Origin: an uncultured Clostridia bacterium
Lineage (GTDB): Bacteria > Bacillota > Clostridia > Christensenellales > Borkfalkiaceae
Assembly (NCBI GenBank): GCA_945638575.1
Contig: CALZDP010000001.1
Coordinates: 62,001-126,000, forward strand
Direction of reading: 5' to 3'
Length of the DNA stretch: 64,000 nucleotides
Part shown: piece after piece, positions 271 to 58,200 of the stretch
Numbering within the stretch: the stretch's first letter is position 1
Layout: every line of letters starts with the position of its first letter
Notes under the pieces: generated by a model
The model's database searches: none
What the model saw: the letters and a program-made list of their open reading frames with translations, nothing else
What the model was told of the DNA's origin: nothing
Translations under genes and position numbers: made by a program

Positions 271-729
271 CTATTTATCCGTATCGTCCGATGCGGAAGA
301 TTGGCTTTCAAAAAGAATCTTTTTGTTTTTACTTCTTAAGGCGTCGACTATATCCATTGTGTTGACGTTTGCAACCGATATTATCATAAAATTATCTTCG
401 CCGAAAAACACCGTCAATTTATCTTTGTCGGGGTCGTAAAGGGTTTTTGTTATTTCCTTAACCGGGATAACGTTTTTCAATATTCCCCAACGCAAAACAA
501 AGTTTAAGTCGTTTACTTCGTAATAGGAAGATACAAATATTGAAACTATTAGCACGATTATCAAAATCGATACTAACAATGTGGTAATTAGACCTATTAT
601 ATGGCTTGGGTCGTACCCTGTTTTTATAAGGCGGTAAACGGACATACCGATAGTTAAACAGGCAAGCAAAAGTGCCGCCGCCATCAAAAGGTAAACGTAA
701 TTTTTGAATTTATACTTAAATCTTTTCAT
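271..729 (-). CDS. small membrane protein with two TM segments and a PH-like C-terminal domain
   Basis: ORF of 152 aa; two hydrophobic stretches followed by 'YYEVNDLNFVLRWGILKNVIPVKEITKTLYDPDKDKLTVFF', a bacterial PH-domain-like pattern. Confidence 0.6.
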   Translation of the reverse strand: MKRFKYKFKNYVYLLMAAALLLACLTIGMSVYRLIKTGYDPSHIIGLITTLLVSILIIVLIVSIFVSSYYEVNDLNFVLRWGILKNVIPVKEITKTLYDPDKDKLTVFFGEDNFMIISVANVNTMDIVDALRSKNKKILFESQSSASDDTDK

Positions 730-3486: not shown

Positions 3487-4614
3487 ATGATATATTTTGA
3501 TAACGCCGCAACCGGCGGATTTAAACCGAATATTGTTAAAGAAAGTGTAAAAAGTCTTTTAGACGATTATCAAGTAAACGTCGGCAGAGGCAGTTACGAT
3601 ACCGCCGTTTTTGCCGAAGAAAGAGTTTTCGAGTGCAGAAGATTTTTATCAAATAACCTTAATAACGGGCATATAGGCAGACTTTTGTTTACCGCTAACT
3701 GCACACAGGCGTTAAATTTTTGCGTGTTCGGATTTAAAGGTTTGGGAAGCGAAATCGTTACAACCGTTACCGAACACAACAGCGTTTTAAGGCCTATTTA
3801 TAAACTTGCCAAAGATAAAAATATGACTATACGATTTGCCAAGCCGGAAAACTACGGCGGAGTTAAAGCGGAAAGCGTATTAAATCTTGTTAACGACAAA
3901 ACGGCTTTCGTTATCATGAATGCGGTTTCCAACGTTACAGGATATAAAAATCAATTTGAAGAGGTCGGGCAAAATTTAAAAGGGAAAATTCCGTTTTTTG
4001 TCGACGGCGCGCAGGCAGGCGGTCATATTAACTTTGACATTATGGGCGACAATATTTCCGCACTGTCGCTTGCAGGGCATAAAGGGCTTTATGCCTATCA
4101 AGGGGTCGGGGTGCTTGCAATAAATAAAAATTATGATTTAGAGCCTACAAACTTTGGCGGAAGCGGAACGGAAACTTTTAGCGAAGTCCCGTTTTCCTAT
4201 CCCGAAAAATTAGAAGCAGGCACTTTAAATTACCCTGCAATATGCTCTTTATATCATGGGGCAAAGTTTGCTTTTGATAATATGGCTTACCATAACGAAA
4301 GGTTAATTTACCTTAGTAACAGGCTTATAGGCGGACTTTTGGAAATTAAAGGGATAAAAATCTATTCCGAAAAAAACCCTTACGGGATAGTTTCCTTTGC
4401 GGCGGAATGTCCGTCGCAGATTTTGGCAGATGTTTTGGGCAAGGTCTATAAGATTGCGGTACGCGGAGGATTCCACTGCGCGCCCCTTATGCACAAACAC
4501 TTAAAAACCGACGATAACGGGCTTATACGCCTATCTTTATCCCCTTTTAACACCGAAGATGAAATTGATTGTTTTTTAAATCATTTGCCGGACGCTATGT
4601 CACTGTGTCTTTAA
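3487..4614 (+). CDS. class V aminotransferase, cysteine-desulfurase family
   Basis: 'MIYFDNAATGGFKP', PLP-lysine region 'ALSLAGHKGLYAYQGVGVL', 'VRGGFHCAPLMHKHL'. Confidence 0.88.
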   Translation: MIYFDNAATGGFKPNIVKESVKSLLDDYQVNVGRGSYDTAVFAEERVFECRRFLSNNLNNGHIGRLLFTANCTQALNFCVFGFKGLGSEIVTTVTEHNSVLRPIYKLAKDKNMTIRFAKPENYGGVKAESVLNLVNDKTAFVIMNAVSNVTGYKNQFEEVGQNLKGKIPFFVDGAQAGGHINFDIMGDNISALSLAGHKGLYAYQGVGVLAINKNYDLEPTNFGGSGTETFSEVPFSYPEKLEAGTLNYPAICSLYHGAKFAFDNMAYHNERLIYLSNRLIGGLLEIKGIKIYSEKNPYGIVSFAAECPSQILADVLGKVYKIAVRGGFHCAPLMHKHLKTDDNGLIRLSLSPFNTEDEIDCFLNHLPDAMSLCL

Positions 4615-4953: not shown

Positions 4954-5358
4954 ATGGATTTTAGCAAAATTTTTTCTTGGATAAAAGAAATGTTTTCGGG
5001 CGGGGCGTTGGACTTTTTATCCGATGTTGACGAAGAAACTTTGTCGCCCGTTGCCGCCTTACTTAATATAAACAGCAAGTCGCTTTGCTCTCTTGTCAGG
5101 GTTTTACCGCCCCTTTTTAAAGGGGAAATTTCCCTTTCCGAAGCCCTGCCGTCGCTTTTACCGATTGTGTTATCATTTTTACTTTCCTCTAAATTAAAAA
5201 GCGAAGTAAGCGTTGAGAAAACCGATGAAAACCTTGAAAAACCGACCTATAGCCCTACTTTTGAACAAAATGAAACCGCAAACGAATTTTGTTCGTTTGC
5301 GGATAACGATATAAGTTATTCTATAAATGCCTACTTGCAAAGCGATAGCGCGTCGTAA
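4954..5358 (+). CDS. hypothetical protein (134 aa)
   Basis: ORF divergent from 4887; 3' end overlaps the S41 protease stop by 28 bp (tail to tail). Confidence 0.6.
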   Translation: MDFSKIFSWIKEMFSGGALDFLSDVDEETLSPVAALLNINSKSLCSLVRVLPPLFKGEISLSEALPSLLPIVLSFLLSSKLKSEVSVEKTDENLEKPTYSPTFEQNETANEFCSFADNDISYSINAYLQSDSAS

Positions 5359-6605: not shown

Positions 6606-6673
6606 AAATTCTCCTTAAAGCCTGCAAAAGTCGGGCTATAAGCCTGTTATCAACCATTTTTACTTGTACACTT

Positions 6674-37846: not shown

Positions 37847-37993
37847 ATCGAGTTCCTTATATAAATGCTTAAAAAGTTTTACTAAATCGGTTTGACCGCA
37901 AACGTTTTTTAAGTTCGGTTATTTAAAAATCACCGCAGTCAATGAAACACGACAAAAGAGCATAGTACACCCTTAGCGATATCGTGCTTTATT

Positions 37994-38023
37994 ATTTTAC
38001 AACAAAAAAATAAAATTGTAAAA
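37994..38023 (-). promoter_or_regulatory. promoter of the subtilase embedded in an inverted repeat
   Basis: Minus strand TTTACA (38022-38017) - 17 - TAAAAT (37999-37994); TTTTACAA / TTGTAAAA arms (37995-38002, 38016-38023). Confidence 0.65.
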
Positions 38024-38160
38024 CAATTAAACTAAGTTTTTTACAACTATATTATAAGTATTATAATATATAATTATAATTCACTAAATTTTCACACTTT
38101 TTCGGGGTGATTTGTCACCCTTTTGGAAAAAACAGGAAGTTTGGTTTGATTACGGAAAAA

Positions 38161-38181
38161 CGCCGAGGCAAAGCCTCGGCG
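38161..38181 (-). terminator. terminator of the long MoxR-VWA-lipoprotein operon
   Basis: CGCCGAGGC-aaa-GCCTCGGCG; on the minus strand it is followed by TTTTTCCG. Confidence 0.8.
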
Positions 38182-38244
38182 TAAATCGTTGTTTCAGATT
38201 TTTTAAATCTATATGTTTTTGCTGTTAACGTGAAACCGAATAAA

Positions 38245-41200
38245 TTATTCTTGAACGACTTCGGTAATGGTTGCCTCGTTTTCGTTTACGGTAACGGTGT
38301 AAACCTTGTTATTGCCGACTGTTACGGTGTAACTGCCGTCGTCATTATTCGTACATTCCCTTGCGAACATATAGGAATAAGAATGTGTACCGGAACTTGA
38401 AGTAGTCTGTCTTACGATAGCCACAACTTTACCGTCGTACATTTCCACATAATTGGTCTTATCTGCGTTATAGTAAACGGTGTTTACTCTCTTTTCGACA
38501 GTAACCGATTCGTAAGGAAGAACGGTGGTTTTTTCATCGCCGACAACGGGCTTTTCGCTGAAAGTAATGTTGTAATGTGTTGAAGATGTAACGTTACCGT
38601 CTTCACCCGTTTCGTTTACGATGCAAATTATAGTACCGTTAACGATGTAACCGCCGCCGTACTCTATTTCGGTATCGTTTTGGTAAAGGTGGAATTCATA
38701 GAACACGCCTGCCTGATAACTATCGGAAGCGATAATGCGTCTTGCGAGCACTTTGTATTCGCCGAAGGTTAAAGTTTCATTTCTGATAAAGGCGATAGTT
38801 TGATAGCAACCGGCATTAAGGAAGGTACCTGCTTCCATAATGAGATCATAAGTATAACCGTCGGCCATTACGGTAGTAATCGTGTAAGTAGCCTTTGCGG
38901 AATCGTAAACGTAATCGGATTTTTCAATGGTTAAAAGGTTACCGAGAGAATCTACAAAGCCCGAACTTTGACCGAAAGTACCGTCTGCATAGTCGGCCGT
39001 AACATTGCCCTGTTCGTTGTATTCGGTAATGAATGAAATTTCGCCGTAATCGTTTTCAATGTATACGCCGCTGAAAATACCCATTACGAAGGAATACATA
39101 TAACGGTAGGACAGTAAGGAGGTTACACGGCTCATGCTGTTGATCGTGTAAGAGGAATTGGTGATTCCTTGATATTTTAAGGTGATATCAAATACGTAAT
39201 CCGCTATGCCGTCGGCAATGGTTAAGTGGAAACCTTCGGCGTCTTTGACGATAGTGCCGGTAACTTCCGTGCCGTCTATCATTACGGTTGCGGAAGTTCT
39301 GTAACTGTCGCCGCCGTTGGGGGCAAACTTTAAGGAAGTTATCGCCTTGCCGTCGATAGGATATTTTTCGGCATTGTCGGCAGGTCTTGCGAATTCCGCG
39401 CCGTAACCGCCGTCGGTATAGTAATATTTATTTTCAAAAACAATAGTGCTTTCGGATAAGTTGAAAGCGTTTTCTTTGATGACGAAGCCGTATCTGTTGG
39501 CATCGGGGTTGTCTTCATCATAACGATAAGTGGTCGCATAAGAACCGTTTGTCGTATAGTAGCAAATGTTAACGCCGTCTTTAATTACGAAGCCGTATTT
39601 TGTGAACAGCAAGGTATTCATCTTTTCGGAATAGAAGTTTCTGGGGTTTGCCTTGCTTAAAATCACGTTGCCGTTTACGGGGTCGAGTTTGTAAATACAA
39701 GCGTCTGAACTTTCGTCGTTTACATAGTAAATAAGTTCATCGGTGATACGTTTGTAAGTACCGGTTTCCTTTTCGCCTTGACCGCGGTATCTTACCGCTT
39801 TACCTACGTCGTCTAAGACAAGTACCGTCCAGTCGGAATCCTGTACGTAAACCATAACGATGGAATCGGTGGTTTCGCCTAAAAGTACGAAGGTGTTGTA
39901 ATATCTTCCGGAATATTCGAAGTAACTTATCTTGCCTATGTAAGAAGCGTCTGCGTCGCCGTCTTTGTAACTTACTGTGATAACTTGGTCGGTTACCGTG
40001 TAAGTAGCGTTTTCGTCAATGTATCTGACTTCTCGCGCTTCGGAACCTTCCGGTGTGTAATATTCAAAAATCTTAGCGTTGCCGTAACCGTCGAGGTGAA
40101 TGTATCTGCCGACGATTGACTGGTTGTCGAATATAATGTACGCGCCGTTTACGCTGCCGGGGAATTCCTCTCCCCTCTTGGTGAAGGAACCGTCTTCATC
40201 GTTAACGTCGAAGTAAAGATAACCGTACTGAGTGGTAAGTCTTACTAAGTTATCGCTTGCGGCATACCTGCCGTCGTAACTGTTACCTTCGGTATCGGTG
40301 TAGTTTGCGCCGTAACCGAAACCGTCAAGGGTAAGGTTACCGAATTTACCCGAATACATTTTACCTTCACATTCGAGGTCGTCGTATTCGTATACGGAGA
40401 ACAATACCTGTGAGGAAGTGGAAAGTTGAATAAATTTGAAGTTTATAGTGTCCGAATTAAACGCCATTACGGGCGAACCGTAGTTGGAAGTTAAACCGGT
40501 TGAGGAAATCGTACCGGCGGTTTCGGTCTTTGCGGTAGATTCTTCCTGCGTATCGGGATCGGTTGTAACGGTAACAACGGTGTAAACCGCGTTGCCCTTT
40601 CCGTCCAATACCATGTATACGTTGGTATCCGCCGCACCGCTGGAAAGATATTTTACGGTGGTGAAAGGTAAATGTTGAAGTCTTTCGAAAGTTAATTCTT
40701 CTTCGTTAATTTCAAAGTATAAAGTTCCGCCGCTCATTTGAACGGAAGCATAGGGACGTTCTGCGGTAGGCGCGGTGTATAAACCGATAAGTACCTGTCC
40801 GTTGGAAGGATCGGTGTAAACCGCCATGCCGTTTGCTACAACTAAAGTAGAACTTTCGGCTCCGTTGTACATCGTATTCATGGTCTGAACGTTACCGCTA
40901 TTATCGGTTACCTGATACCAATAGGAAATGCGCATGGTAAGGGTTGCGTCGTCAAGTACCAATAAAACAGACTGAATATCGTTAAAGTTATAGTCGCCTA
41001 CGTAAATGGATTGGTCTATAGTTTCAACCGATTCAACGGTCAAAGTATATGTTGCTACGCCGGAAGCGTCGCTTATAACTTCCACTTGTTCATAAGCGCA
41101 AGTTGCGACCTTAACAAAATTCCTTGCGGAGTCAACGCCGTAGATGTTTGCTTTGCCGACTTGTTCGTCGTCAAGTACGACTAACGGCGCGATATAAACG

Positions 41201-43221
41201 TTATCTGCGGTTTTATAGTAGAATTCTGCATAAGAAAGTAACTTTTCGGTAAATTCATATACCGTTTTGGTGTCTTTGGTTGCGTTGCCTTCTTCGTCTA
41301 AAACGGCTTCTTCATGACCTAAAACAAGGAACTTTTTGGCGTTGCCGTTTAAGTTGGTGGAAATTATATATCCGCCCCTGTAAGAAGATTGCGAAGTGTA
41401 AGCGCCTTTGTATTCGGTGGTGCCGTCAAAGTAGGTTAAGTTATACAAACCGTCGGTGGTCAACTTTGTTCCGTCTGCGTTTTCGATAGTGATATCGAGC
41501 GCTTGGTTGTAAATCATATAGCCGAGGCTTCCTTTATATTCAAATACCTTGGCAACTAATTGAGACTGTCCGTCGGATAAAGTTAAAATACCGTCGCTGT
41601 AAACGTAGGATAACGTTTGGGTTGCGGTAGGATCGGTTGCACTTGTATGCATGGTGGCGGTAAAGAAGCCGTCAAGTTCGATTTGCGCCGCAGTTGCTTC
41701 GCCGATTTGAGCGCCGCTTAAAATAAACCTCTTTAACGTGCCCATGGCGTATTGTTCTTGATTGCGTTCAAGGAATACCAAATTGCCGTTACCTGTCTTC
41801 GCTATAACGAATTCAAGGGTGGTACCCTGCTTGGGGCCTTCCATAAATTCAACATAATAAACGTTGCCTTCCGTGGTATATAAGCCGAGCGATTTTTCGC
41901 CGTTATCGTCGTATGTAATGCCGTTGCCTTTGTCGAATTCGATGGTAACTTCTTGCTTGACGCCTTCGCCCTGAACAAACTTGGTGTAGGAGCCGATTCT
42001 TCTGTCTTCGTCGTAATAGATAAAGGAACCGTTATTGTTTACCCTGCCGCGTAAGAAAATACGATCGTCGCGGTTAACTTCAAATTCAAAGTTGTGTTGG
42101 TTATACGAAGCCTTGGGTAAATAGGTGCCTTTAAAGTAGCAACTGCCGCGCTTTAAGTATGCAACACCGCGGTTGGAATTTTCTTCCGCTTCAACGAAAA
42201 TGGTATCGTTACCGCCGAGCATATCGTAATAACCTTTTTGCCATACGGCGTAAAGGGTAGTGGTTCTTAACGGGGTTACTTTGTCGTTTTCCAAAGTCTT
42301 GTCTCCGCCGTACACAGCACGATCGATAAAGTTAGACTTATAAACGATTTCACCCGTAGCCGAAGTCGCCCAACCGCTTAAATAGTAGCCGTCGAGTTCA
42401 AAATAACATTCGTCGGTAAGAGTGGTTTCGACGCCGTAGTAGGTGTTGATACGTACCGATTGAGAGGTACCGTTGGGATTATTTGAAGTAAAAGTTAAGT
42501 TTACCGCGTTTCTGTTGTAGTAACCCTTTAAAACGCTTCCTTCGCCTGCCGTTACGGACAAAACTTGGTCGGCATTATCCGCAAGGGAAAAACCTTCGTA
42601 CTTGTTATTTAAAGTCAAAGTTTCGCCGACGTAAGCGTATAAGGTTTCGCCGTCCTGCTTATCGTAGCCGTCTAAGGTATTGTTTTGAAGATAAACTTCT
42701 ACCTTGCAAGGCGCTTTGTATTTTGCCGTCAAGTTAAGCGCCGTTTCGGACATTCTTAAATTTTTGGCAAGTTCTTTGCTGCCGTTAAACCATGCGCCGA
42801 ATTCGTAACCGCTTTTAGTAGGCTTTAAATCTTTTAACGCATCGTATACGTTAGCACCCTTTTTAAGGTAAACTTTATCGGTGGAAAGGCTTCCGCCGTC
42901 TACGTTTAGGTTGACAGCGTAAAGTTGTTCCCACTTAGCGTAAACCACCGTGTCTTCGGTAAGGGTTACTTGGGTAACCGCACTGCCCGAAAAGTCGGCG
43001 TTTAAGTACCAACCTTCAAAACTGTACTCCGCCCCACGGGTAGGCGTGGGAAGGGTAAAAGACTCTTCTTTATTGATTGTTTCTTCGGCGATTGGCGTTC
43101 CGCCGTTTACTTCGAAGGAAAGTTTTGCCGTTTTACCGTTGCACGCAACCGCAAATATGGATAATGCGGTTACCGCTACGGAAAGCAATACCAAAATCAA
43201 ATTCTTTCTCAGATTCTTCAT
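38245..43221 (-). CDS. giant lipoprotein (1658 aa) with InlB/Flg_new repeats and a long beta-rich repetitive region
   Basis: Lipobox 'IFAVACNG'; 'LSFEVNGGTPIAEETINKEESFTLPTPTRGAEYSFEGWYLNADFSGSAVTQVTLTEDTVVYAKW'. Confidence 0.8.
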   Translation of the reverse strand: MKNLRKNLILVLLSVAVTALSIFAVACNGKTAKLSFEVNGGTPIAEETINKEESFTLPTPTRGAEYSFEGWYLNADFSGSAVTQVTLTEDTVVYAKWEQLYAVNLNVDGGSLSTDKVYLKKGANVYDALKDLKPTKSGYEFGAWFNGSKELAKNLRMSETALNLTAKYKAPCKVEVYLQNNTLDGYDKQDGETLYAYVGETLTLNNKYEGFSLADNADQVLSVTAGEGSVLKGYYNRNAVNLTFTSNNPNGTSQSVRINTYYGVETTLTDECYFELDGYYLSGWATSATGEIVYKSNFIDRAVYGGDKTLENDKVTPLRTTTLYAVWQKGYYDMLGGNDTIFVEAEENSNRGVAYLKRGSCYFKGTYLPKASYNQHNFEFEVNRDDRIFLRGRVNNNGSFIYYDEDRRIGSYTKFVQGEGVKQEVTIEFDKGNGITYDDNGEKSLGLYTTEGNVYYVEFMEGPKQGTTLEFVIAKTGNGNLVFLERNQEQYAMGTLKRFILSGAQIGEATAAQIELDGFFTATMHTSATDPTATQTLSYVYSDGILTLSDGQSQLVAKVFEYKGSLGYMIYNQALDITIENADGTKLTTDGLYNLTYFDGTTEYKGAYTSQSSYRGGYIISTNLNGNAKKFLVLGHEEAVLDEEGNATKDTKTVYEFTEKLLSYAEFYYKTADNVYIAPLVVLDDEQVGKANIYGVDSARNFVKVATCAYEQVEVISDASGVATYTLTVESVETIDQSIYVGDYNFNDIQSVLLVLDDATLTMRISYWYQVTDNSGNVQTMNTMYNGAESSTLVVANGMAVYTDPSNGQVLIGLYTAPTAERPYASVQMSGGTLYFEINEEELTFERLQHLPFTTVKYLSSGAADTNVYMVLDGKGNAVYTVVTVTTDPDTQEESTAKTETAGTISSTGLTSNYGSPVMAFNSDTINFKFIQLSTSSQVLFSVYEYDDLECEGKMYSGKFGNLTLDGFGYGANYTDTEGNSYDGRYAASDNLVRLTTQYGYLYFDVNDEDGSFTKRGEEFPGSVNGAYIIFDNQSIVGRYIHLDGYGNAKIFEYYTPEGSEAREVRYIDENATYTVTDQVITVSYKDGDADASYIGKISYFEYSGRYYNTFVLLGETTDSIVMVYVQDSDWTVLVLDDVGKAVRYRGQGEKETGTYKRITDELIYYVNDESSDACIYKLDPVNGNVILSKANPRNFYSEKMNTLLFTKYGFVIKDGVNICYYTTNGSYATTYRYDEDNPDANRYGFVIKENAFNLSESTIVFENKYYYTDGGYGAEFARPADNAEKYPIDGKAITSLKFAPNGGDSYRTSATVMIDGTEVTGTIVKDAEGFHLTIADGIADYVFDITLKYQGITNSSYTINSMSRVTSLLSYRYMYSFVMGIFSGVYIENDYGEISFITEYNEQGNVTADYADGTFGQSSGFVDSLGNLLTIEKSDYVYDSAKATYTITTVMADGYTYDLIMEAGTFLNAGCYQTIAFIRNETLTFGEYKVLARRIIASDSYQAGVFYEFHLYQNDTEIEYGGGYIVNGTIICIVNETGEDGNVTSSTHYNITFSEKPVVGDEKTTVLPYESVTVEKRVNTVYYNADKTNYVEMYDGKVVAIVRQTTSSSGTHSYSYMFARECTNNDDGSYTVTVGNNKVYTVTVNENEATITEVVQE

Positions 43222-43391
43222 TTTAAATCTCCTGTAGCAATAAAACTGGTATTTTGTCGATTAAATAAGTTATATTGGAATGTTAGTATATATAAATATA
43301 CCACCTTTCTACGCCCGTTGTCAAACATAAATAGGCTTAGAAAAGTGGTAATTTTTAATCTTTGCTATTTTTATTTCTTCTGTAATTTAAG

Positions 43392-43580
43392 TTTTGAGTT
43401 GTACGCCGTAAAAAAGCGATTATTTGCCGTCTGTGGTCATTTATACGCCGATTGCAAGCGTTTATACGCCACAGACAGACAATTTTTTGCCCTAAAAAGT
43501 CATTTATACGCTGACGGCGTACAGACTTTGCGTCGAATAAAGGCATTTATGCGCACACCGCAAACACTTTTTTACAAAAA
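43392..43580. repeat. degenerate 21-nt tandem repeat array (about 9 units)
   Basis: In-register 21-mers, e.g. TGGTCATTTATACGCCGATTG / CAAGCGTTTATACGCCACAGA / AAGTCATTTATACGCTGACGG / AAAGGCATTTATGCGCACACC. Confidence 0.75.
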
Positions 43581-43586
43581 TCCACC

Positions 43587-46523
43587 TTACGCTACTTGAT
43601 CCGCAGGAGGATTTTCGTCGGGTACGGGCTCCGGTTCGGCTTCCCAAACGGCGTATAGCACTGTGCCGTCGGAAAGGTTTGAAAGTTCGCTTGCCGAGTA
43701 TTCAGGCGTAACTCCGCCCTCGGTTAAAGTATATCCTTTGAAGATATATCCCCTTCTCGATGGCGCGGATATGATATTGTATTCGTTTCCGTAATATATC
43801 GAATCCGCCTTTTTGGTAACGGAAACAACGTAATTGTTGTCTTCGGACAAAGTTGCAGACCAAACTATCGGACGGTAAGAAGGATTGATTCTTCCGCTCC
43901 AATTAGGCATAAAAGCGTCGGCGTCGGTGTAGATTGTGGCTAAGTTGCACTGGAAAAACGCCCATGAGCCTATCCATTCCACGTTCTTACTTAAGTTTAT
44001 CGACCTAAGACTTTCACAACCGGAAAAGGCATAATTGCCGATATATTTTAAGTTTTCGCCAAATTCTACGTCGGTAATTTGGTTGAGACCGCAGAAAGCG
44101 TTTTCGCCGATATAAGTCAAAGCCGAACTTAACTGCAAGTTTTCAACCGAAACACAGCCGTAAAAAGCGGCTTTACCGATAGTTTGTACGGTATCGGGAA
44201 TTACAACTTCCTTAAGGGTGTAACACTGATAGAAAGCGGAATCGCCGATTTCGGTAAGTTTATCGCTGCCCGTTTCATTCTGTTCAAAGGTCAAAGTTTC
44301 CAAGGCAAAGCAACTTGCAAAAGCCTCTTGTCCGATAGAAGTAATGGTATCCGGAATGGTTACTTTTTCAAGCATATTACAGTAATAAAATGCGTAGTCT
44401 GAAATATTTTCCAAAACCCCGTATTCGGGAAGGATAACTTCGGAAAGGTGCTGACAGTATGCAAACGCAGATTGACCTATAGATTCAAGTCTATACAAAC
44501 TTGAAAGGTCGATATTTTTCAAAGAACTACAACCATAAAATGCCGAACGGCCGATTCTTTCCAAGTTAAGAGGAGTACCGATATCTTTAAGGTTTTTACA
44601 ACCGTAGAACATAAAATCGGGTACTTCTATAATGTTGTCGGTAATTACGAAAGTAGTTAAGTCTTCACAGCCGTAAAAGGCGCCTGCGCCGATGTATTTA
44701 ACGCTGTTGGTATTATTTACGGATAGTATAGACGCGCCCATAGAAACATTGGAAAAAGCATAATCCGCTATACCGATGGTATCGTCTTTTAAAGTTATGT
44801 TTAAAGAAGTTTGGAATAAATCTTCAAGAACTTTGATACCTACAACCCATTTACCCGCGTAAACTTCTTTGTTGACTGAGGCTACGTTCCACAATTTGGT
44901 TCTTAAAAATGCTTGACCGCCGATTTTTCTTATCGAGTCGGGAACGAGAAGATGATAGTTTTCCTCGGAAGGAACGTCTAAACCGCTGCACATATAGAAA
45001 CAGTAAGCGCCTATTTCTTTTACCTTTTGCCCCATTCTGACATTGGTAAGATTTGTACATTCATAAAAGGTACTGTTACCGACAACAAGCAATTCATCGT
45101 CGTCGTAAGCGTCGAATTTATATAGTTTAGGGCATTGCGAAAAGGCTGCGCCGCATACGTATTTTACAGTACGCGGTAAAATAACCGACTGCAATAGTTC
45201 TGCCTTTGCAAATATGTATTGACACAAGCCTACAGTGCCTTCCGCAATATCGATACGCTTTGCGGGGGTTCCGTCTTCTTTCGGAGGAACACTGCCGTCC
45301 CCTATCGATTCAACGGTGATTTTAAGGGGTTGAGAAACGCCCACCAGCCAATTATCGGCATAGAAAAGTTTTTCGCCGTAATTCACTTCTTCTTCGGGAC
45401 AAATTTTTGTTTTGTAAAACACCGAAGCACCAAGGTTGGTAAGACTGTCCGGAAGGTCAACCGTTTCAAACTTGGGACAACTTGCAAAACAGTTGGTGCC
45501 GATATACTGCAAACCCTCGGGCAAAACTACGCCGGTAAGATTTTTACTGTAAGCAAATACCCTTGTATCAAGTTCGGTCAAACTGCTGTTCGGCGAAAAA
45601 GTTATGCCTTTTGATAAAGAACAACTTGCAAAGGCTTGATCGTAAATGGTTTTTACGCCGCTGCCGATAGTAACAGACTCTAATGCCGAACAGTAGTAAA
45701 ACGCCTTTTGGTATATAGCCGTAACGGAATCGGGAATTACAACTTCGGTTAAAGCGGTACAGTTTATGAAAGCGGATTCGTATATAGTATTAACGTTGTC
45801 GGGAATGGTTATGGATTCGAGCGACGGACAATAAGCGAAAATATATTCGTTAAGTTCGGTTATGCCTGCGGGAATGTTTACAACTTTAAGAGAGTTGCAC
45901 GACATAAAGCAAGCATTGCCTAAAAAAGTAATATTATCGGAAAGGACTACCTTTTCCAAATTAACGCAATTTGCAAAGGCGCTTTCGCCGATAGAAGTTA
46001 CGTTTTTACCTACCGTAACCGAAGTTATAGTCTTACTTCTATAAAATGCGCTGTCGGCGATAGCGGTTACGGGTTTGCCCCTGTAAACGTCTTCGATGGT
46101 GAATTCGCCTTGGGCTCTTCCTACCCTTGAAATCTGGTATTCTCTTTCATTGTTGATAAGCGTATAAACACAGCCGGTTTCATAAATTTTGTGGAAGAAA
46201 ATGGTTTCGGACCAATCGGATTCTTCTTTCATACGGCTTGAAGGTATGGCTTTTATCCTTATGTCGTAGTCGCCTTCGGAAAGGTCGGCTAAAGAACATA
46301 AAGGTTTCCTAAGGTTTGCGGACAAAACTACTTCTTTAGTAACGTAATCGGTTACTTCGACAACGTAATTTTTTGTGTCCGCTACCTCCGTCCAAGTCAT
46401 ATTGTTATCTTCGTCAAAGACTATTCCTTTCGGCGTGCCGATCTTATCGGTATTACACGCCGTGAACAGGAAAAGCGATGTAACGAAAAGGCAGAAAAGT
46501 ATGCCTATAGTCGCTTTTTTCAT
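43587..46523 (-). CDS. BspA-like LRR_5 lipoprotein (978 aa)
   Basis: Lipobox 'FLFTACNT'; repeated 'ITSIGESAFANCVNLEKVVLSDNITFLGNACFMSCNSLKVV' LRR_5 units; C-terminal Flg_new. Confidence 0.9.
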   Translation of the reverse strand: MKKATIGILFCLFVTSLFLFTACNTDKIGTPKGIVFDEDNNMTWTEVADTKNYVVEVTDYVTKEVVLSANLRKPLCSLADLSEGDYDIRIKAIPSSRMKEESDWSETIFFHKIYETGCVYTLINNEREYQISRVGRAQGEFTIEDVYRGKPVTAIADSAFYRSKTITSVTVGKNVTSIGESAFANCVNLEKVVLSDNITFLGNACFMSCNSLKVVNIPAGITELNEYIFAYCPSLESITIPDNVNTIYESAFINCTALTEVVIPDSVTAIYQKAFYYCSALESVTIGSGVKTIYDQAFASCSLSKGITFSPNSSLTELDTRVFAYSKNLTGVVLPEGLQYIGTNCFASCPKFETVDLPDSLTNLGASVFYKTKICPEEEVNYGEKLFYADNWLVGVSQPLKITVESIGDGSVPPKEDGTPAKRIDIAEGTVGLCQYIFAKAELLQSVILPRTVKYVCGAAFSQCPKLYKFDAYDDDELLVVGNSTFYECTNLTNVRMGQKVKEIGAYCFYMCSGLDVPSEENYHLLVPDSIRKIGGQAFLRTKLWNVASVNKEVYAGKWVVGIKVLEDLFQTSLNITLKDDTIGIADYAFSNVSMGASILSVNNTNSVKYIGAGAFYGCEDLTTFVITDNIIEVPDFMFYGCKNLKDIGTPLNLERIGRSAFYGCSSLKNIDLSSLYRLESIGQSAFAYCQHLSEVILPEYGVLENISDYAFYYCNMLEKVTIPDTITSIGQEAFASCFALETLTFEQNETGSDKLTEIGDSAFYQCYTLKEVVIPDTVQTIGKAAFYGCVSVENLQLSSALTYIGENAFCGLNQITDVEFGENLKYIGNYAFSGCESLRSINLSKNVEWIGSWAFFQCNLATIYTDADAFMPNWSGRINPSYRPIVWSATLSEDNNYVVSVTKKADSIYYGNEYNIISAPSRRGYIFKGYTLTEGGVTPEYSASELSNLSDGTVLYAVWEAEPEPVPDENPPADQVA

Positions 46524-46535
46524 AATATTTTACCT

Positions 46536-49535
46536 TTATTTTTTGTGATTTTTGAACCTTTTATCTTTTCTTTCACGAATGATTTCGTGCAACCATTTGA
46601 ATTTGAACTTACGAACGGCAATATCCAACAAGAACATTACTATTATAAGTATCGCAAATAAAATCCTCGGATCGTATTCGTTATGGATGACTAATTCAAC
46701 GTTTTCAAAGAATACGTTCAAGTTCAAAACGTCGTCGTTGTATACGCCGTTTCCGCCGTCCGCCAACAAACCGAGTTTAGTGGTTATCTCTTCTTGGGTA
46801 GCGGTGGTTGCATCGTATTCTTTGGAATATGAGAAAGATTTATAGAAGGTGTGAACTTGTTTTTCACTGCCGTCGGCGGCTAACTTCTTTAATGTTATCG
46901 TGTAAGTACCTGTGTTTTTGGCGACAAATGAGAACCTGCTGTAGTTGTTTGAGGCTTCAAGCGGTAAAGTAACGTAAACCGTAGGATCTGGGTTTTTGGA
47001 AATCGAGTCTAATGACACGGTTTTTTCGACGTTACCTTCGCGCCAACTGATGGTACCTGAAATCCTTTCGTCTTCTTCAAGCGAAGTCATAACGCTTACG
47101 GTATTGTGATAGTTGTCTTCCGTTATGGTGGTTTCGATACCGCTTGTCGATAAATCCCTTAGCGGTAACAATTCCTTAACCACGTTAAGAATAAGTGTCT
47201 TGCCCTGTTCGGAATCTATTAAATCTTGTGAAAACTGACCGTATAGGTCGATTGCAAACGAGCCTACTTTACCCTTACCGTAATTCCACTGTGCATAAAT
47301 GGGGACTTCATACTCCCCTTTTATAAGCAGTTTTGCGCTTGGACGAATTTTCGTCCCGTAAAAGCCCGATAAAACTATCGGCAATTTGTCCGAGAAAGTT
47401 TCGCCGGAAGTATCAAGCACACCGCTGAAAATCGGCGATACGATGTCCGCTGAAACAGGATAAAAGTCGGTAAGTTCTACCTGCTTAATATCGGGGGCGG
47501 AAACGTCTGCCCTAAGTTGCGGTAAAATATCGCTGGGTTCGACAGACATCATCAATTTCTTGAAAACGTTTAATCTTTTACTTTCGGTGGCTTGAGGATT
47601 ACCTGAGACCTCTTGCGTATCGTTGGAAAGCCAAACGACGCGCATCAATCTTTCATAGTTATCATCTGAACCTTCGCCCGGAACTAATTTAAGTTCGCCG
47701 CGCAAAAGTCTGTTATTAAAGTCTGTTACGTCATGATATTCCTGTCCGGTTATAACGATTGAGAAAGTTATACCGTGTTCTTTGTATGCTCGCGACGCCA
47801 AATCTTCTATGGTCATAAGGTCTTGTATTTGACCGTCGGTAAGCATGATAATATGACGCTTTTTAATCTTCGTGTTGTTTGAAAGGTGAGCAATGGCAAG
47901 CCTTACGGAATCTGCAAACGCCGTTCCGCCGGTAGGTTCGGGCATGTTTCTTATTGCCTTGTTAATAGCCGATCTGTTGGTTACCGAAGTAAGCGGAAGT
48001 ACCATATGCGCGGCATCGTTAGTGGCAATTATACCGCAATAGTCGCGCGGGGAAAGCGTGCTGTCCTCGTCTTCGCCTACTTTATCCAAAGCGTATTCGA
48101 TACCTCTTTTTGCGTAAGCCCATTTGGAATTGTTATTTTCGTCGTATTCTCCGCCGCCGCCCATAGAGCCTGAAATATCGATTAAGAACATTACGCCGAC
48201 CGGTGGCGTATATGCAACGGACTGAACGGGAAGCATTTGCTGATACAAAGTTTCCTGCGAGAAACCGCTATACATATCCTTTCTGTTATACGCGTGCGCG
48301 ACAGGATGGGGTATGTTGAGTTCGTCTAACTCTTCCCCGTCGCTTCCGCCGGTGGTAATTAAAGAACCGCCGTAATCGTATACGTAGGACTGAAGCATCT
48401 CGTCAAAGCCTTCTTGCGTTTGCATATCGGCGTTGGAAATGTTGTTTAAAATTACCTGATTATATTCGCGTAATTCCTGCAACGTATCGGGACAATCGGG
48501 GTCGCCGAATGTGGTGCTTGTTACGTTGTATAAATTGTCTTCGCTTAAAAGGTCATTAAGGAATTGCGATTCCTCTTCAATGGCGTCTTTAGAACGAGAA
48601 ATAAGCAAAACTTTATTGTAACGCTCTAAATCGTAATAGGTGCTGAATTTATTGTTTTGTTCCACTCCGTCATTGTCTACCGTCATGGTAACGTCGATTT
48701 TGTGTATACCGTCGGCGGTAAATGTGTGGGGGAAGGAGCATTGAGTTACGCCTTCCGATACCGCAAAAGGCAAATTTTCTTTTTCGCCGTTATTGTCGAT
48801 CATCGAAATTACGGCGTCGGTTGCAAAATTGGAAGCGATAGTTATCGTTATGTTGCAAGAAACGTTTAACTGAACATTAGTTTCGGGGAAAGTAATTTCG
48901 GTTATACGCGCGTCTTTACCGGTGTATTCCGACGGAATATACATAACGTCTAACTTAGTGTTTTGCGCCGTTACGTATTTTACGGCATTTACGGAATTTT
49001 CGTCTGTTTCTTTACCGTCGGTAACAAGTATTATCTTTGCGGTTTCCGGATTTTTGAATATACCTGCGGTATACTTTATTGCGGCTTCTATATCGGTTGC
49101 CGAAACGTCCGGTTTTTTAGCGTTAAGATAGTTGTCATAAGTTTGGGTAATATCCTTGTTGATTTCGGAAGCGTAAACTTGATCAAAACCAAAGGTTACA
49201 ACGCCTACGCCGAAACCGTTATTGGCGCCTTCGTTAACGATATCCCTTACGAACATATCTCTTTCGGTTTCGGAATAGTTTTCGGAATCGGACATGTCGA
49301 CAAGGACTATCATTTCGTTTGTGGTTAGCGATACGTTATACTCGAAACGCATTCCCGCAAGCATCAATATGGCAAGCGTCATTGCCGTAACGTGTAAAAT
49401 TATGGAAACGATACGGTTTCTTGTATTCCTGTACTTTTTGTTTATCATAAAGTAAGGAATTAAAACTGCCAAAAGTACGGGGATTATCGCAAAAAGCAGC
49501 CAAGGGTATGAAAAACGAATTGCAAAACTTGTCAT
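46536..49535 (-). CDS. membrane VWA-domain protein (999 aa) with two MIDAS-like motifs
   Basis: TMs at both termini; 'IVLVDMSDSEN' and 'MFLIDISGSMGGGGE'; BatA/B-like layout with a GATase-like middle. Confidence 0.85.
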   Translation of the reverse strand: MTSFAIRFSYPWLLFAIIPVLLAVLIPYFMINKKYRNTRNRIVSIILHVTAMTLAILMLAGMRFEYNVSLTTNEMIVLVDMSDSENYSETERDMFVRDIVNEGANNGFGVGVVTFGFDQVYASEINKDITQTYDNYLNAKKPDVSATDIEAAIKYTAGIFKNPETAKIILVTDGKETDENSVNAVKYVTAQNTKLDVMYIPSEYTGKDARITEITFPETNVQLNVSCNITITIASNFATDAVISMIDNNGEKENLPFAVSEGVTQCSFPHTFTADGIHKIDVTMTVDNDGVEQNNKFSTYYDLERYNKVLLISRSKDAIEEESQFLNDLLSEDNLYNVTSTTFGDPDCPDTLQELREYNQVILNNISNADMQTQEGFDEMLQSYVYDYGGSLITTGGSDGEELDELNIPHPVAHAYNRKDMYSGFSQETLYQQMLPVQSVAYTPPVGVMFLIDISGSMGGGGEYDENNNSKWAYAKRGIEYALDKVGEDEDSTLSPRDYCGIIATNDAAHMVLPLTSVTNRSAINKAIRNMPEPTGGTAFADSVRLAIAHLSNNTKIKKRHIIMLTDGQIQDLMTIEDLASRAYKEHGITFSIVITGQEYHDVTDFNNRLLRGELKLVPGEGSDDNYERLMRVVWLSNDTQEVSGNPQATESKRLNVFKKLMMSVEPSDILPQLRADVSAPDIKQVELTDFYPVSADIVSPIFSGVLDTSGETFSDKLPIVLSGFYGTKIRPSAKLLIKGEYEVPIYAQWNYGKGKVGSFAIDLYGQFSQDLIDSEQGKTLILNVVKELLPLRDLSTSGIETTITEDNYHNTVSVMTSLEEDERISGTISWREGNVEKTVSLDSISKNPDPTVYVTLPLEASNNYSRFSFVAKNTGTYTITLKKLAADGSEKQVHTFYKSFSYSKEYDATTATQEEITTKLGLLADGGNGVYNDDVLNLNVFFENVELVIHNEYDPRILFAILIIVMFLLDIAVRKFKFKWLHEIIRERKDKRFKNHKK

Positions 49536-49549
49536 TTCTTTTTACCCCC

Positions 49550-51568
49550 TTACATATTGTCACGGAGTTGCAGTAACCACTCCGCAAACATGAATACGGT
49601 AAGCCCTATAGCAATGTATAACAGCCAATCCGCATAGTAATCCCTTGCGGCGGCGTTGATATAAGGATTGTACAAGCCTTCCGCATCGGGTGAAACATCG
49701 CTTTCGGCAGACGGCATTTTTACATAAATGCTGTTGGTTAATTCCTTACCGCTAAAAGTCTGCTGTGTTATGGTGTAACTTCCCTGCATGTTAAGTTTAA
49801 TGGTTGCGGGGAAATATTCTATCTTTTGAGAATACCCGTTACCTTTTATGTCGAGAAATCCGCCAAGCGATTTTAAAATGATATCTTCATTTACTTCAAA
49901 AGCGTCCTTTTCAACGGTAGCAGGATAGAAATATTCAAATAAGTTGTAGAAAAACAGCGGAAAATCAACAACCAACGGGAAGTTTGTGTAATGTATGCTG
50001 AAAGTAAAATACACAACCTTCATTTGATCGTCGTTGGCAACCAAAATAAGAGGCTTTTCCATAACCGACAAAATACATTCGTAACGGTTGGTGTCGTAAC
50101 TTACAACTTCATTATATGCATTAAGAAAAATATGTTCAGGCGTTATATTATTCAACAAAGGATGGCGAACCTCTATTTCCGGCGAAAGCCCTCCCGGCAC
50201 ATCGATACTGCGAAGTCCGCCGATATTTACGCCTGAGCCGTTTATGGAACCTTGGGGCGATAATATCAAAACCACGCCGTCGGTAGGAAGTACGGTAGGC
50301 ATTTCTGCATGTTCGAAAATATAAAGGTCGTAACCGGAAATTTCTTCTCCCAATTCTTCTATAAAGACCTCTTGTTCGATAGTGATATCCCAATTTTCTT
50401 CGTAAATCTTTTTCATCGTCAAAAGCGCCTGATTAACGAAGGTGTTGGGCAACGTGCTGACGTACATTACCTTTAACGGGGTTTTTGTTCCGCCGTAAAT
50501 ATAAAAGTCGTTGTCTTCGTATAATGCGTCGTCATAGTAAATCAAACGGTCTCTGAAACTTTCGGCAGAGCCGTCTTCCAAAATAGAAACGTGAATACTT
50601 TCGTACGAATAGATTTGCGTGGTTTGGTCCACTATTATCATATTGTCGGGCGGGGTTTGTCCGTCCGGTAAAGTGTTATGTCTGAAGGCTATCGTATAAA
50701 CGGTATCCTGCATAATGTCCAGTTTGCCGGTAGGCTTTAAAACTTCGTTTTGAGTCTGAGTTTCGTCCGCTTCCGCATTTACGCCGTATACGTCGAGAAC
50801 AAGTTGTAAATCTTCAAAGTTTCTGCCATAGCAAGCAACGTCCACGAAAAAGTTGTAATAACCGTCGTCGTAACTTGTGTAAGCATTCAAGATGGCAACA
50901 TTCCAATCTTCCTCGACAGACACGTCTTCAACGGTAACTTTTTCCGGCACGTGAATGTATTTGTTATCGGTGTAAACGAAAACGTTGGCATACTCGTTTA
51001 TGGCGATGATATCTTCGCAAAGGGCGAGCGCGCCGTCGATATCGGACTTACCGAAAGTGCAGGCGCTGTTACCTTCCATAAGTCCGTTTACCGTATCAAC
51101 GAACTCATTTGACTTGTCGGGTGTTATTCTCGAAATAAGAAAATCAGGATCTTCATCCGCCAAAATCAAAGAAACTTTACCGCTGTTATTGAAAGTAAAG
51201 TTTGCCAAATCGATAGAGTCTTTTAGCGCCCTTTCAAAACGGGTTTCGCCGTCGGACTGCATACGCATACTTGCCGAGCAGTCAACGATAATTATTGCTT
51301 CTTCACCGCTTTCTTTTGCTAAAAGTTCACGGCTGGGACGGGCTAAAACCGCAGTACAGCACAGTAATACCAAAATTTGACATAAAATTAAAAGCAAATT
51401 CCTAAGTTTACTGATAGGAACACGCTTTTTTTTGTATTTTAAACTTAACTGCCAAATAAACGTACTTGAAATTATGCGTTGTTGGTAGTTAGGTCTGATT
51501 ATATAGATTATCAAAAGGACTATTAAACTTATTAAGCCTAATAATCCCAATGGCATTAGTAAAGTCAT
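49550..51568 (-). CDS. BatA-like membrane VWA protein (672 aa)
   Basis: N-terminal 'MTLLMPLGLLGLISLIVLLIIYIIRPNYQQRIISSTFIWQLS' (BatA-type), 'AIIIVDCSASMRMQ', C-terminal TM. Confidence 0.85.
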   Translation of the reverse strand: MTLLMPLGLLGLISLIVLLIIYIIRPNYQQRIISSTFIWQLSLKYKKKRVPISKLRNLLLILCQILVLLCCTAVLARPSRELLAKESGEEAIIIVDCSASMRMQSDGETRFERALKDSIDLANFTFNNSGKVSLILADEDPDFLISRITPDKSNEFVDTVNGLMEGNSACTFGKSDIDGALALCEDIIAINEYANVFVYTDNKYIHVPEKVTVEDVSVEEDWNVAILNAYTSYDDGYYNFFVDVACYGRNFEDLQLVLDVYGVNAEADETQTQNEVLKPTGKLDIMQDTVYTIAFRHNTLPDGQTPPDNMIIVDQTTQIYSYESIHVSILEDGSAESFRDRLIYYDDALYEDNDFYIYGGTKTPLKVMYVSTLPNTFVNQALLTMKKIYEENWDITIEQEVFIEELGEEISGYDLYIFEHAEMPTVLPTDGVVLILSPQGSINGSGVNIGGLRSIDVPGGLSPEIEVRHPLLNNITPEHIFLNAYNEVVSYDTNRYECILSVMEKPLILVANDDQMKVVYFTFSIHYTNFPLVVDFPLFFYNLFEYFYPATVEKDAFEVNEDIILKSLGGFLDIKGNGYSQKIEYFPATIKLNMQGSYTITQQTFSGKELTNSIYVKMPSAESDVSPDAEGLYNPYINAAARDYYADWLLYIAIGLTVFMFAEWLLQLRDNM

Positions 51569-52464
51569 GAAATCATACCTACCTTCAATAATTCGCCGAA
51601 AAGCACCTTTTCAATAGGGTCTTCGGTATTGACCGTGATATAGTCGACACCGCGCTTTTTGGCAAAAGTTCTGATATCCGCATAAAAGTCTTTTAAAGCC
51701 TCTCTGTAAGCGGACTGTGCGGAACGGGTTATTCTTATCTTCATGTTTTTTTCGTCAACAAGGTCTAAGGATTCGGAGTCGATAAGATTTACCCTGCCGT
51801 CAAACGTAGGTTCGACTTCGGCAGGCGTTAAAGGCTGTAAAAGCATTACCTGACGCTTTTTGTAACAAAGGTAGTCAACAGCCTTCTTCCAGTCGCTATT
51901 GGTAAAAAAGTCGGAAATAATGACCGTAAGACCGTTGTTGTTTCCGGTTTCCGGACAGGAAGTGATACACTTTTCGATATCGCTTTCACCGTCGAAAACC
52001 AAATCTTCAAGTTGACCGACCGCCCTGAAAAAAGCGTTTTTGCCCACTATGGTACCGAAAGGATTTTCGGTAGTGTTTCCCTTCATAATGTGGAAGGAAA
52101 CTTTATCCATATTATGAACCGCCAAAAAGCCTAAAGCGGCAGCCGCCGCAATGGCGTATGCCGCCTTTTCAGGGTTATCTTTACCCATAGAAGCCGAACA
52201 GTCCACAAAGATTTGGACGTGCATTTGTCTTTCATCGGTAAATAACTTGATAAAATACTTTTCGAAACGACTGAAAAGATTCCAGTCTATACGCCTTATA
52301 TCGTCGCCGAGTTGATATTCGCGAAAGTCCGCAAACTCAACCGTCTGTCCGTAAGTCGATACAAGGTGCTTACCGCCGAAATACCCTAACAAGTGTGATT
52401 TTAAGTTGAATGCAAGGGTTTCAAGCCTGCTGAAAAATTTGTCGTTTAATAAAGAGTCCTTCAT
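51565..52464 (-). CDS. DUF58 domain protein
   Basis: 'FADFREYQLGDDIRRIDWNLFSRFEKYFIKLFTDERQMHVQIFVDCSASM'. Confidence 0.93.
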   Translation of the reverse strand: MKDSLLNDKFFSRLETLAFNLKSHLLGYFGGKHLVSTYGQTVEFADFREYQLGDDIRRIDWNLFSRFEKYFIKLFTDERQMHVQIFVDCSASMGKDNPEKAAYAIAAAAALGFLAVHNMDKVSFHIMKGNTTENPFGTIVGKNAFFRAVGQLEDLVFDGESDIEKCITSCPETGNNNGLTVIISDFFTNSDWKKAVDYLCYKKRQVMLLQPLTPAEVEPTFDGRVNLIDSESLDLVDEKNMKIRITRSAQSAYREALKDFYADIRTFAKKRGVDYITVNTEDPIEKVLFGELLKVGMIS

Positions 52465-52500
52465 CTATAATCCTTAAAAACAAGAGTTTTCAAAAAAACG

Positions 52501-53517
52501 TTATTTTATCTTTAACTTTTTGGTTAGTTCCGCTAAAATCATATCGATAACTTGGTCGGTGGAAATTCTTTCCGCAATAGCCTCGAAGTTAAGTTTGATA
52601 CGGTGGCGTAATACGAAGTGCGCTAAGTCGTTGATATCGGAATAAGCAACGTTGTACCTGCCTTTTATAAGGGCAAGAACTTTACCTGCGGAAATAAGCG
52701 CCTGACCTGCACGAGGGCTGGCGCCCAAACGCACGTACTTTTTGGCGGTTTCCGTAGCACATTCGCTGTCGGCGTGGGTTGCGGAAGTCAAAGTCATGGC
52801 GTAGCGCAAAACCTCTTGCGATACGGGAATTTGATTGGCGATTTCACGCATTCTTAAAAGTTCGTCGCCGGTACAAGCGCGGTCGGCTACTTCCGCCATG
52901 GTCTTTTGAGTCATGGTAACGATGTCCATGAGTTCGTCAAGGCTGGGGTTGGGTACCAACAGTTTAAACATAAACCTATCCATCTGCGCTTCGGGAAGCG
53001 GATAAGTACCGTCTTGTTCGATAGGGTTTTGGGTTGCCAAAACGAAGAAAGGTTCTTTTAACTTTCTTGAAGTACCCATAACGGTAACTGTATGTTCCTG
53101 CATTGCCTCGAGCAGCGCCGACTGTGTTTTAGGCGTAGCACGGTTGATTTCGTCCGCAAGGATAATATTACTGAAAACAGGACCTTCTTGGAATTTAAAG
53201 GAGGAATTGCCGTTTTCGTCTTTTACGATGATATTCGTACCCGTAACGTCCGCAGGCATTAAGTCCGGCGTGAACTGTATACGAGAGAAAGGTAAATCGA
53301 ATACCCTGCCGAGAGTTCTTACAAGCCTTGTTTTACCAACGCCCGGAACACCTTCGAGTAATACGTTACCGCCTGCGATCATAGCGATGATAGTACCTTC
53401 TACTACTTCTTGCTGACCGATGACGTCCCTTCTTATCTGCGCAAATATATCCTGAATTTGTTTGCTGAATTGGTCGATATCCTGTTGATTGATTGCCTTA
53501 ACGTTTTCTGTTGCCAT
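52501..53517 (-). CDS. MoxR-family AAA+ ATPase
   Basis: 'GNVLLEGVPGVGKTRLVRTLGR', 'ILADEINRATPKTQSALLEAMQEHTVTV', 'ATQNPIEQDGTYPLPEAQMDRFMF'. Confidence 0.96.
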   Translation of the reverse strand: MATENVKAINQQDIDQFSKQIQDIFAQIRRDVIGQQEVVEGTIIAMIAGGNVLLEGVPGVGKTRLVRTLGRVFDLPFSRIQFTPDLMPADVTGTNIIVKDENGNSSFKFQEGPVFSNIILADEINRATPKTQSALLEAMQEHTVTVMGTSRKLKEPFFVLATQNPIEQDGTYPLPEAQMDRFMFKLLVPNPSLDELMDIVTMTQKTMAEVADRACTGDELLRMREIANQIPVSQEVLRYAMTLTSATHADSECATETAKKYVRLGASPRAGQALISAGKVLALIKGRYNVAYSDINDLAHFVLRHRIKLNFEAIAERISTDQVIDMILAELTKKLKIK

Positions 53518-54946: not shown

Positions 54947-55138
54947 CAGAGGCACAACCCCTCTGTCGGCGTTGCCGACATCTCCCCTTGCACAGGGGCG
55001 ACATACGTGGATAGTTCGATGCCCGATAGTATTTGGGCTTACGTAGTAATGGGCAAAAAATGCCGATAACGGGCTTATATGCATAGTTTTACCAATCCCT
55101 CAGGCACTACGTGCCAGCTCCCTTTGCACAAGGGAGCC
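54947..55138. repeat. two related double-hairpin intergenic elements
   Basis: Element A: GTCGGC-gtt-GCCGAC (54965-54979) + CCCCT-tgcac-AGGGG (54983-54997). Element B: GGCAC-tac-GTGCC (55103-55115) + GCTCCCTT-tgcac-AAGGGAGC (55117-55137). Same order and same TGCAC loop. Confidence 0.75.
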
Positions 55139-55166
55139 TAATAAGGTCGGTAAAAATTTATATGTA

Positions 55167-55199
55167 AAACGCCGACTCGTGAAACACGGGTCGGCGTTT
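55167..55199 (-). terminator. terminator downstream of the giant LRR gene
   Basis: AAACGCCGACTCGTG-aaa-CACGGGTCGGCGTTT. Confidence 0.75.
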
Positions 55200-55267
55200 G
55201 TTTGTGAAATTATAACTTTACATCTAAGTTACTAAAAACTTTTCAATTAAGTTACAGTTTAATTTAG

Positions 55268-58200
55268 TTAAGCTTCAACATAGTCCCAAATAATATTAGC
55301 GTCACAGTTATAGAACCATACACCGTCTATTTTTGAAGTGTTAAGCGCCCAACCTTTGGAAACAGTGCCATAGAAGCAGAAGCAAATGGTCTGATCTTTC
55401 GTCCAACCGTCGAATGCGCCGTTTCCGACATTTTCAGGAGGTTGTCTGAAAATTATCTTCTTAATGGACGTACAGTTGTTGAAAGCGTTGAAATTTACCT
55501 TGGTAACGTTTTCGGGAATTGTTATCTCGCTAAGAGAGGTACAATCATTAAATGCGTTATTGCCGATATTCGTTAACGATTCGGGTAAAACCACCTTTGT
55601 AAGAGCGGTACAACCACGGAATACAGCGGTAGAAAGTTCGGTAACGCCTTCGGGAACAACGAAAGACTCCAACGAAGTACAATTCTGGAAGATGTACATC
55701 GGTAAAACGGTTAAGTTGTTAGACAAAGTTACGTTTTTAAGACTTGAGCAACCATCAAACATATAAGTGCCTAATGTTGTTACGCTGTCCGGGATAACGA
55801 CGGATTCCAAAGCGGTACAGCCTGCAAACGTGTAGTTTGAAAGTTTGGTAACCCCTTCTTCGATCGTAACGCTTGCAAGACTTTCGCAACCTTTAAACAC
55901 ATAAGTGCCTAAAGTTGTTACGCTTGCGGGTACGGTTACAGATTCAAGTCCGCTTCCGCTGAATGCATAGTTACCGATAGAGGTAAGCGCTTCAGGGAAA
56001 GTAACCGATTTAAGGTTAATAGCGTTCTGGAATACGTAAGTACCGATAGTAGTTAACGTTGAAGGAAGAGTAATAGACTGAATTCCGCTGTTTTGGAAAG
56101 CGTAATTGGTTATCGAAGTAACACCTTCGGGAAGAACGACGTCTTTAAGAGAAGTAGTGTTTCTGAATACGTAAGTCGATGACGTGCCCGTACCGATAGC
56201 GGTTACGCCTTGAGGAATAACTACGGTTTCAAGAGCGGTTGCGCCGTCGAAAGTGTAATTGGGGATTTCGGTTATGCCGTCAGGTAAGGTTACGCTTACG
56301 AGATTTAAGCAGTTTTGGAACATATAGGTACCGAATGCAGTAACGCTGTTCGGGATAACCATAGATTCAAGTCCGCTTCCGCTGAATGCATAGTTGCCGA
56401 TATCCGTTAAGGTTGACGGGAAGTTTACGGTAGTTAATGAGGTACAGCCTTTGAAGGTCTTTGCACCTATGCTCGTAAATCCTTCGCCGAATGTTACTTC
56501 CTTAAGACTTGTGCAGTCTTGGAAGATAGGCGTAGACGCCGACAAAGTGTATTTTGCAGTTGCGCTGGTCGTAAACTGCTTAACCGAACCGGGGATGGTT
56601 ATAGACTTCAAACCGGAACCGCTGAAAGCGTTGTTACCGATATAGGTAAGCGTTTCGGGTAAGGTAATGGTTTCAAGCGATCTGCAATTCTGGAAAGCGT
56701 AATTGCCGATAGCGGTCAAACCTTCGGGAAGGGTTACCTCGGTTACGCACGATAAAGCAAAGGCATAATTCGGTAAACCGGTCATGTCGGAAGGAAGAAC
56801 AACTTTGATATCGCTGCAGCCCATGAACGCATAAGCGCGAATAGTTATACCCATGTTATCGGGAATGGTAACTACGCCGTTATCGCCCTTTAAGCCTGCG
56901 GGATAGCAAATAACTTCGCCCGTCATAGAAACGAGTGCGCCTGAAGTTTCATCTACCATAACGGAAGTATTGCCGTCCGCTACTGTGATAGAGGTAAGAT
57001 TTTGACAATAGCCGAAAGGAGCGTTACCGATGTTTGCCGCGGTAAGTCCCTTAGGAATGGTGTAAGAAGTTGCAGGTGAATAAGCAAAAGCGTTTACACC
57101 TAATAAGGTTACCGTTTCCGGAATATCCATATAAAGACTGTCGCAACTAAAGAAGGCATACCCGCCGATAGCGGTTAATTTACCCTTAAAGGTTACGCTT
57201 TCAAGTCTGTCGCATTCACGGAATACGTTAACGCTTGAACCTATCTTGCATGCAGTTGCGCTTGTACCGAGTTTGGTAACACCCTTAGGAACTTCGATTC
57301 TGATTAAACCGGAATTAAGGAAGGTGTTGGTACCGAGGAAGTTAAGTTTGGAGTTTTCACCGAAGGTTACTTCTTCCAAAGCGGAGCAGTTTTGGAACAT
57401 ATAGTTACCTAATGCAACAACTAAGTCCGGAATAGCAATGGTCTTTAAAGAGGTTGCTGCATCGACTGCAGGCATAGGATTGCTAATTGAAGTGCTGCCG
57501 TTATAATTCGAGAAAACGTAAGTGCCAAACTTATTAAGTTTTGACCCTGCGCCGAAGTTAACGTTTTCCAAAGCGGTACAGCCGGAGAATACGTATTGAT
57601 TAATGGTCGTTACGCTGTCCGGAATATCGATGGAAACAAGACTTGAACAGTCATAGAAGGCATAGTTCGGTATAGTCGTAAGCGCGCCGGTGGGAAGGTT
57701 AACGGAGGTTAAAGAAGTACAACTTTGGAATACTTGAACGCCTAAAGTCTTTAAAGAGGTACCCAAGAATTCAATTTTTTCAAGAGAAGTACAATCACCG
57801 AAAGCCAACTTTTCAACGTTCGTAACAGGTTGAGGTATCTTAATCGAGGTCAACGACGAACAGTGTTGGAAAGCGTTTGCGTTAATCTTTGTAAGTTTTG
57901 TAGCGGCTTCTAAGTTGATAGAAGTAAGATTCTTACAATTTAAGAAAGCGTTTGCGTTAATAGTCGTCAGTTTGGAGCCTTCTTCGATAGTTACGGTAGT
58001 AAGATCCGCACAATCTTTGAAAGCGTCTTTGTCGATTGTCACTACGTTTGCGGGAATGGTAATGCTTGTAATAGCAGAACCCGCGAAAGCGCTTGTCATT
58101 TTTGTAAGTTTGGAACCTTCTTCGAAAGTTACCGTCTTAAGGTTCTTCATATTACTGAAGGAACTTGCATAAAGGTTGGTAACAGACTTGGGAATCACAA

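Follow-up and report, generated by a model that had tools for sequence, protein, structure and literature searches.

A degenerate 21-bp tandem array in the spacer between two lipoprotein genes of an uncultured Clostridia bacterium

Why should the spacer between two genes for large lipoproteins carry a sequence that recurs every 21 nt? The question is raised by positions 43392-43580 of the window (the whole stretch of DNA analysed, 64,000 nt from an uncultured Clostridia bacterium of the Borkfalkiaceae), in which the first-pass annotation had described nine in-register 21-mers, suggesting either iteron-like sites on one face of the DNA or a peptide built of heptads.

The locus and its 21-nt periodicity

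The spacer between the two minus-strand genes extends from 43222 to 43586 (365 bp). The features of the locus are as follows.

38245-43221, minus strand: gene for a giant lipoprotein of 1658 aa with Listeria-Bacteroides repeats, downstream of the array
43229-43233, minus strand: AGGAG, resembling a ribosome-binding site in sequence, ahead of the giant lipoprotein ATG at 43221
43294-43355, unstranded: imperfect inverted repeat spanning the promoter, with 22-nt arms (82% complementary) and 18 nt between them
43295-43324, minus strand: sigma70-type promoter match of the giant lipoprotein gene, TTGACA-18-TATATT (11/12), with TG before the -10 box
43399-43524, unstranded: array core of six 21-bp units in the best register, TTGTACGCCGTAAAAAAGCGA ... 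TTATACGCTGACGGCGTACAG, from autocorrelation, scans and leave-one-out scoring
43422-43483, unstranded: imperfect inverted repeat inside the array, with 15-nt arms, forming an extended stem in the predicted fold
43495-43523, minus strand: weak intrinsic-terminator-like hairpin followed by TTTTT, where the transcript of the LRR gene ends
43525-43580, unstranded: units 7-9 of the first description (there starting from 43518), with weak A/T phasing, unsupported as repeat units by leave-one-out scoring
43587-46523, minus strand: gene for a BspA-type LRR lipoprotein of 978 aa, its stop codon 6 nt from the array as first delimited
46536-53517, minus strand: VWA, VWA (BatA-type), DUF58 and MoxR-type AAA genes, in the same gene run as the LRR gene

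The MoxR-DUF58-VWA-VWA-LRR gene run thus ends with the BspA-type LRR lipoprotein gene, whose stop the array adjoins, and the array occupies the minus-strand spacer from this stop to the promoter of the 1658-aa lipoprotein. The neighbours of the array are LRR, VWA, DUF58, MoxR, subtilase and lipoprotein genes, and no regulator gene was recognised among those examined. Decay of the C-terminal part of the LRR gene does not account for the array, since the LRR protein has an intact C-terminus and ends like its orthologues. Separately, the gene order VWA, VWA, BspA-type LRR lipoprotein, giant lipoprotein (38245-53517; loci L069-L080) was found to be conserved, with MoxR and DUF58 upstream within the window and two copies in some genomes (G005 and G022); this order is possibly that of a MoxR-VWA system with surface partners.

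The 21-nt periodicity itself is real. Autocorrelation over 43392-43580 gave z=4.6 at 21 nt, 5.1 at 42, 4.3 at 63 and 4.2 at 84, and its maximum was reached by none of 1000 dinucleotide shuffles. When periods of 7-44 were scanned in 441 kb of the same genome (the window and about 377 kb of further stretches, which is part of the genome), the array locus had the highest score of all (z=8.1). It also ranked first, with 8.3 vs 6.4 for the runner-up, in a scan confined to the non-coding parts of these 441 kb and of 400 kb from the nearest relative, G002. The other 21-nt signals that were inspected are weaker and resemble coding sequence, several of them being coiled-coil-like.

The nine 21-mers are present in the sequence as first written, but nine is an overstatement, only six being statistically supported. 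By leave-one-out scoring units 1-6 are each supported at p<=0.01 whereas units 7-9 are no better than background (p=0.32, 0.09 and 0.38), which limits the supported part of the array to about six units in 43392-43524. Even among units 1-6 only 8-16 of the 21 positions are identical in pairwise comparison, and for this reason Tandem Repeats Finder did not detect the array at its lowest threshold. Some columns are nevertheless invariant in these six units (TT.T..GC; p=0.02 for column heterogeneity, under a star model and with the register picked post hoc), which hints at selection on a core.

Other copies, relatives and a dispersed element

Searches of the same genome with the array DNA returned matches of chance length only and no second copy. 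The core shows no genome-wide enrichment (14 sites with up to one mismatch vs 14 for the reversed control), and exact two-unit patterns were found neither there nor in viral contigs. No similar array was detected in phages, in plasmids (by blast) or in viral contigs, Rfam gave no match to the array at gathering or relaxed thresholds, and nothing directly comparable was found in the literature.

The same was true of relatives. Of the two outcomes that the first-pass annotation had named as counting against it, autocorrelation no higher than in shuffles did not occur, but a lack of similar arrays in relatives did. Searches of 60 related genomes with the array DNA gave short matches (best E 5e-4 per genome) and no array at the loci inspected. 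Orthologues of the giant lipoprotein occur in seven other genomes and those of the second VWA protein in eight; scanning the remaining genome contigs with the lipoprotein revealed no relative. Gene order is kept wherever both orthologues share one contig; the 21-nt signal is absent from all nine orthologous spacers examined, and the G002 spacer aligns with that of the array no better than shuffles do. This absence leaves room for a species-specific function, because the flanking proteins share no more than 45-51% identity with those of the nearest relative.

The spacer plan, a transcript end followed by a promoter, appears from sequence comparison to be older than the array, which would then be a local addition, since the relatives G001 and G003 keep a TTGACA/TATACT promoter match in the equivalent spacer, and G001 also a strong terminator (13-bp stem) immediately after the LRR stop, with the array absent.

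A dispersed element of about 40 nt, unrelated to the array and more striking than it, was also noticed in this genome. Its consensus is AAAARGTSSGSCTATARGYCSRTTATCG-N5-TTTT, and its 14-base core CTATARGYCSRTTA has 279 exact copies in the genome vs 2 for the reversed control. The core was counted 350 times in G002, 240 times in G006 and 92-100 times in two further genera of this family, and is near zero in most other members of the family. In the window the copies are at 224-271(-), 2544-2584(+), 3648-3688(-), 4311-4348(-), 4501-4540(-), 5228-5269(-), 6620-6663(+) and 55053-55093(-). The two strands are used about equally and spacers are enriched (34 of 54 copies in 13% of the sequence). Copies within genes lie nearly always in one open frame, a bias partly explained by the fact that in one orientation only that frame lacks a stop. 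We take the element to be a candidate REP-, RPE- or DNA-uptake-sequence-like repeat. Decayed copies of this element do not account for the array, as the best match to the element profile in the spacer had E 0.38.

Readings of the array

We favour, with moderate confidence, the reading that a 21-bp unit in a terminator/promoter spacer was tandemly duplicated in this lineage and has since eroded, and that the result affects the promoter mildly if at all. We infer that slippage or unequal tandem duplication produced the units, which later diverged, and all that is said here on function is of the same conditional kind. The spacer as a whole would consist of the transcript end, with its weak terminator hairpin, and of upstream promoter DNA, and the repeat would lack a dedicated partner and would influence the binding of RNA polymerase, through its helical phase, no more than mildly, perhaps slightly favouring the downstream lipoprotein promoter. 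An eroded duplication is consistent with a periodic signal that is unique in 441 kb of this genome and 400 kb of the relative, with the lack of a second copy in the genome and with the absence of similar arrays from relatives despite the kept gene order. Against it stand the invariant core columns, a fold stronger than that of column-permuted arrays and a strict 10.5-bp phasing of A/T runs, which exceeds what a uniformly decaying duplication needs. If the array is a worn tandem repeat, its main lesson is that periodicity may be both striking and real without a conserved function.

The phasing is one argument for a regulatory role. The A/T runs are in phase at 10.5 bp to a degree reached by 0 of 3000 dinucleotide shuffles of 43392-43580 and by 1 of 3000 of the core, and A/T power at this period is among the highest in the 441 kb, which supports the suggestion that the two-turn spacing places the units on one face of the DNA. 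The units could be protein sites, or curving phased A/T tracts, that set the activity of the lipoprotein promoter through an oligomerising protein or the wrapping of RNA polymerase. This is a possible reading, although we hold it to be unlikely. Besides the phasing and the invariant columns, it is favoured by position, the array starting about 75 bp upstream of the -35 box, and by a copy of the core with 2 mismatches, CCTTTCTACGCC, at 43304-43315 inside the promoter spacer. This copy also lies within one arm of the inverted repeat at 43294-43355, which encloses the -35 box and has one arm overlapping the promoter spacer and the -10 box; judged from its sequence, the inverted repeat may be a strong hairpin (z about -5) or a candidate operator. 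However, the core lacks enrichment genome-wide, the array is missing from orthologous spacers that retain the promoter, no regulator gene was recognised nearby, and the predicted net curvature, matched by 5.7% of shuffles, reaches only the 73rd-86th percentile among non-coding DNA. Strongly curved DNA can thus be set aside: the phasing is present, but the wedge model used predicts no large bend. A more specific form, in which an oligomerising protein reads the six 21-bp sites on one helix face together with the inverted pair around the -35 box, as a species-specific operator switching the giant surface lipoprotein on or off, we judge rather improbable. If true, it would reveal how giant surface proteins are controlled in a little-studied lineage of bacteria.

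It is also improbable that the array acts at the 3' end of the LRR transcript, its units pairing into nested hairpins that end or protect the RNA. The minus-strand fold of the array has a z of about -4, beaten by 0 of 200 shuffles, and none of 200 arrays whose letters were permuted inside each column folds as strongly; moreover a terminator-like site is found on this strand, and in one relative the equivalent place is occupied by an evident terminator. Yet the array hairpins are ordinary for this genome, since 29% of its spacers have z <= -3.9 (the array -3.8), the terminator stem is short and weak, and hairpins need no 21-nt direct repeat. In addition there is no Rfam family, nor a homologue from which covariation could be read. 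As a separate observation, the spacers 37919-38247 and 55089-55270 are predicted to be strongly structured on either strand (z about -5.7 and -6.4).

The coding alternative of the first-pass annotation, a heptad-repeat peptide from the plus-strand ORF 43318-43599, is scarcely credible: the frame does stay open through the array, but it has a TTG start with no ribosome-binding site and no in-frame ATG ahead of the array, its codon score of -0.17 is below that of every real 93-codon gene piece (0.43 +/- 0.14), pN/pS between units is 0.83 with no clear purifying signal, neither Pfam nor a six-frame search of relatives gave a match or a convincing homologue (best E 3e-3 per genome for the ORF protein in the 60 related genomes), and its end overlaps that gene end of the LRR lipoprotein which is 3', in antisense orientation.

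Comparison with known systems

The array shares with iterons and partition sites (plasmid origins, parC-type 20-21-bp repeats) direct repeats spaced at about two helical turns. It differs from them in being chromosomal, in its strongly diverged units, which at 8-16/21 are far from near-identical, and in its lack of relatives; among the neighbouring ORFs given to Pfam, none was recognised as a gene for replication or partition. An iteron-like function, as first proposed, does not fit a chromosomal run of surface-protein genes, a core without enrichment and the absence of similar arrays from relatives.

Phased A/T tracts upstream of sigma70 promoters in low-GC bacteria are a second point of comparison, as the A/T runs of the array are phased at 10.5 bp and a good promoter match lies downstream. 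These runs are however a mixture of A, T and TTTATA and not uniform A-tracts, their predicted net bend is unremarkable, and a GC-containing core also recurs every 21 bp.

Intergenic minisatellites, or VNTR loci, of bacteria consist of head-to-tail units of tens of bp, are lineage-specific and have no conserved partner. The array resembles them in all these respects, with significant head-to-tail periodicity over six units in a spacer, as befits a degenerate tandem repeat. Its units are far more diverged than those of variable-number loci, and for this reason the array, to judge from its sequence, is old and probably frozen.
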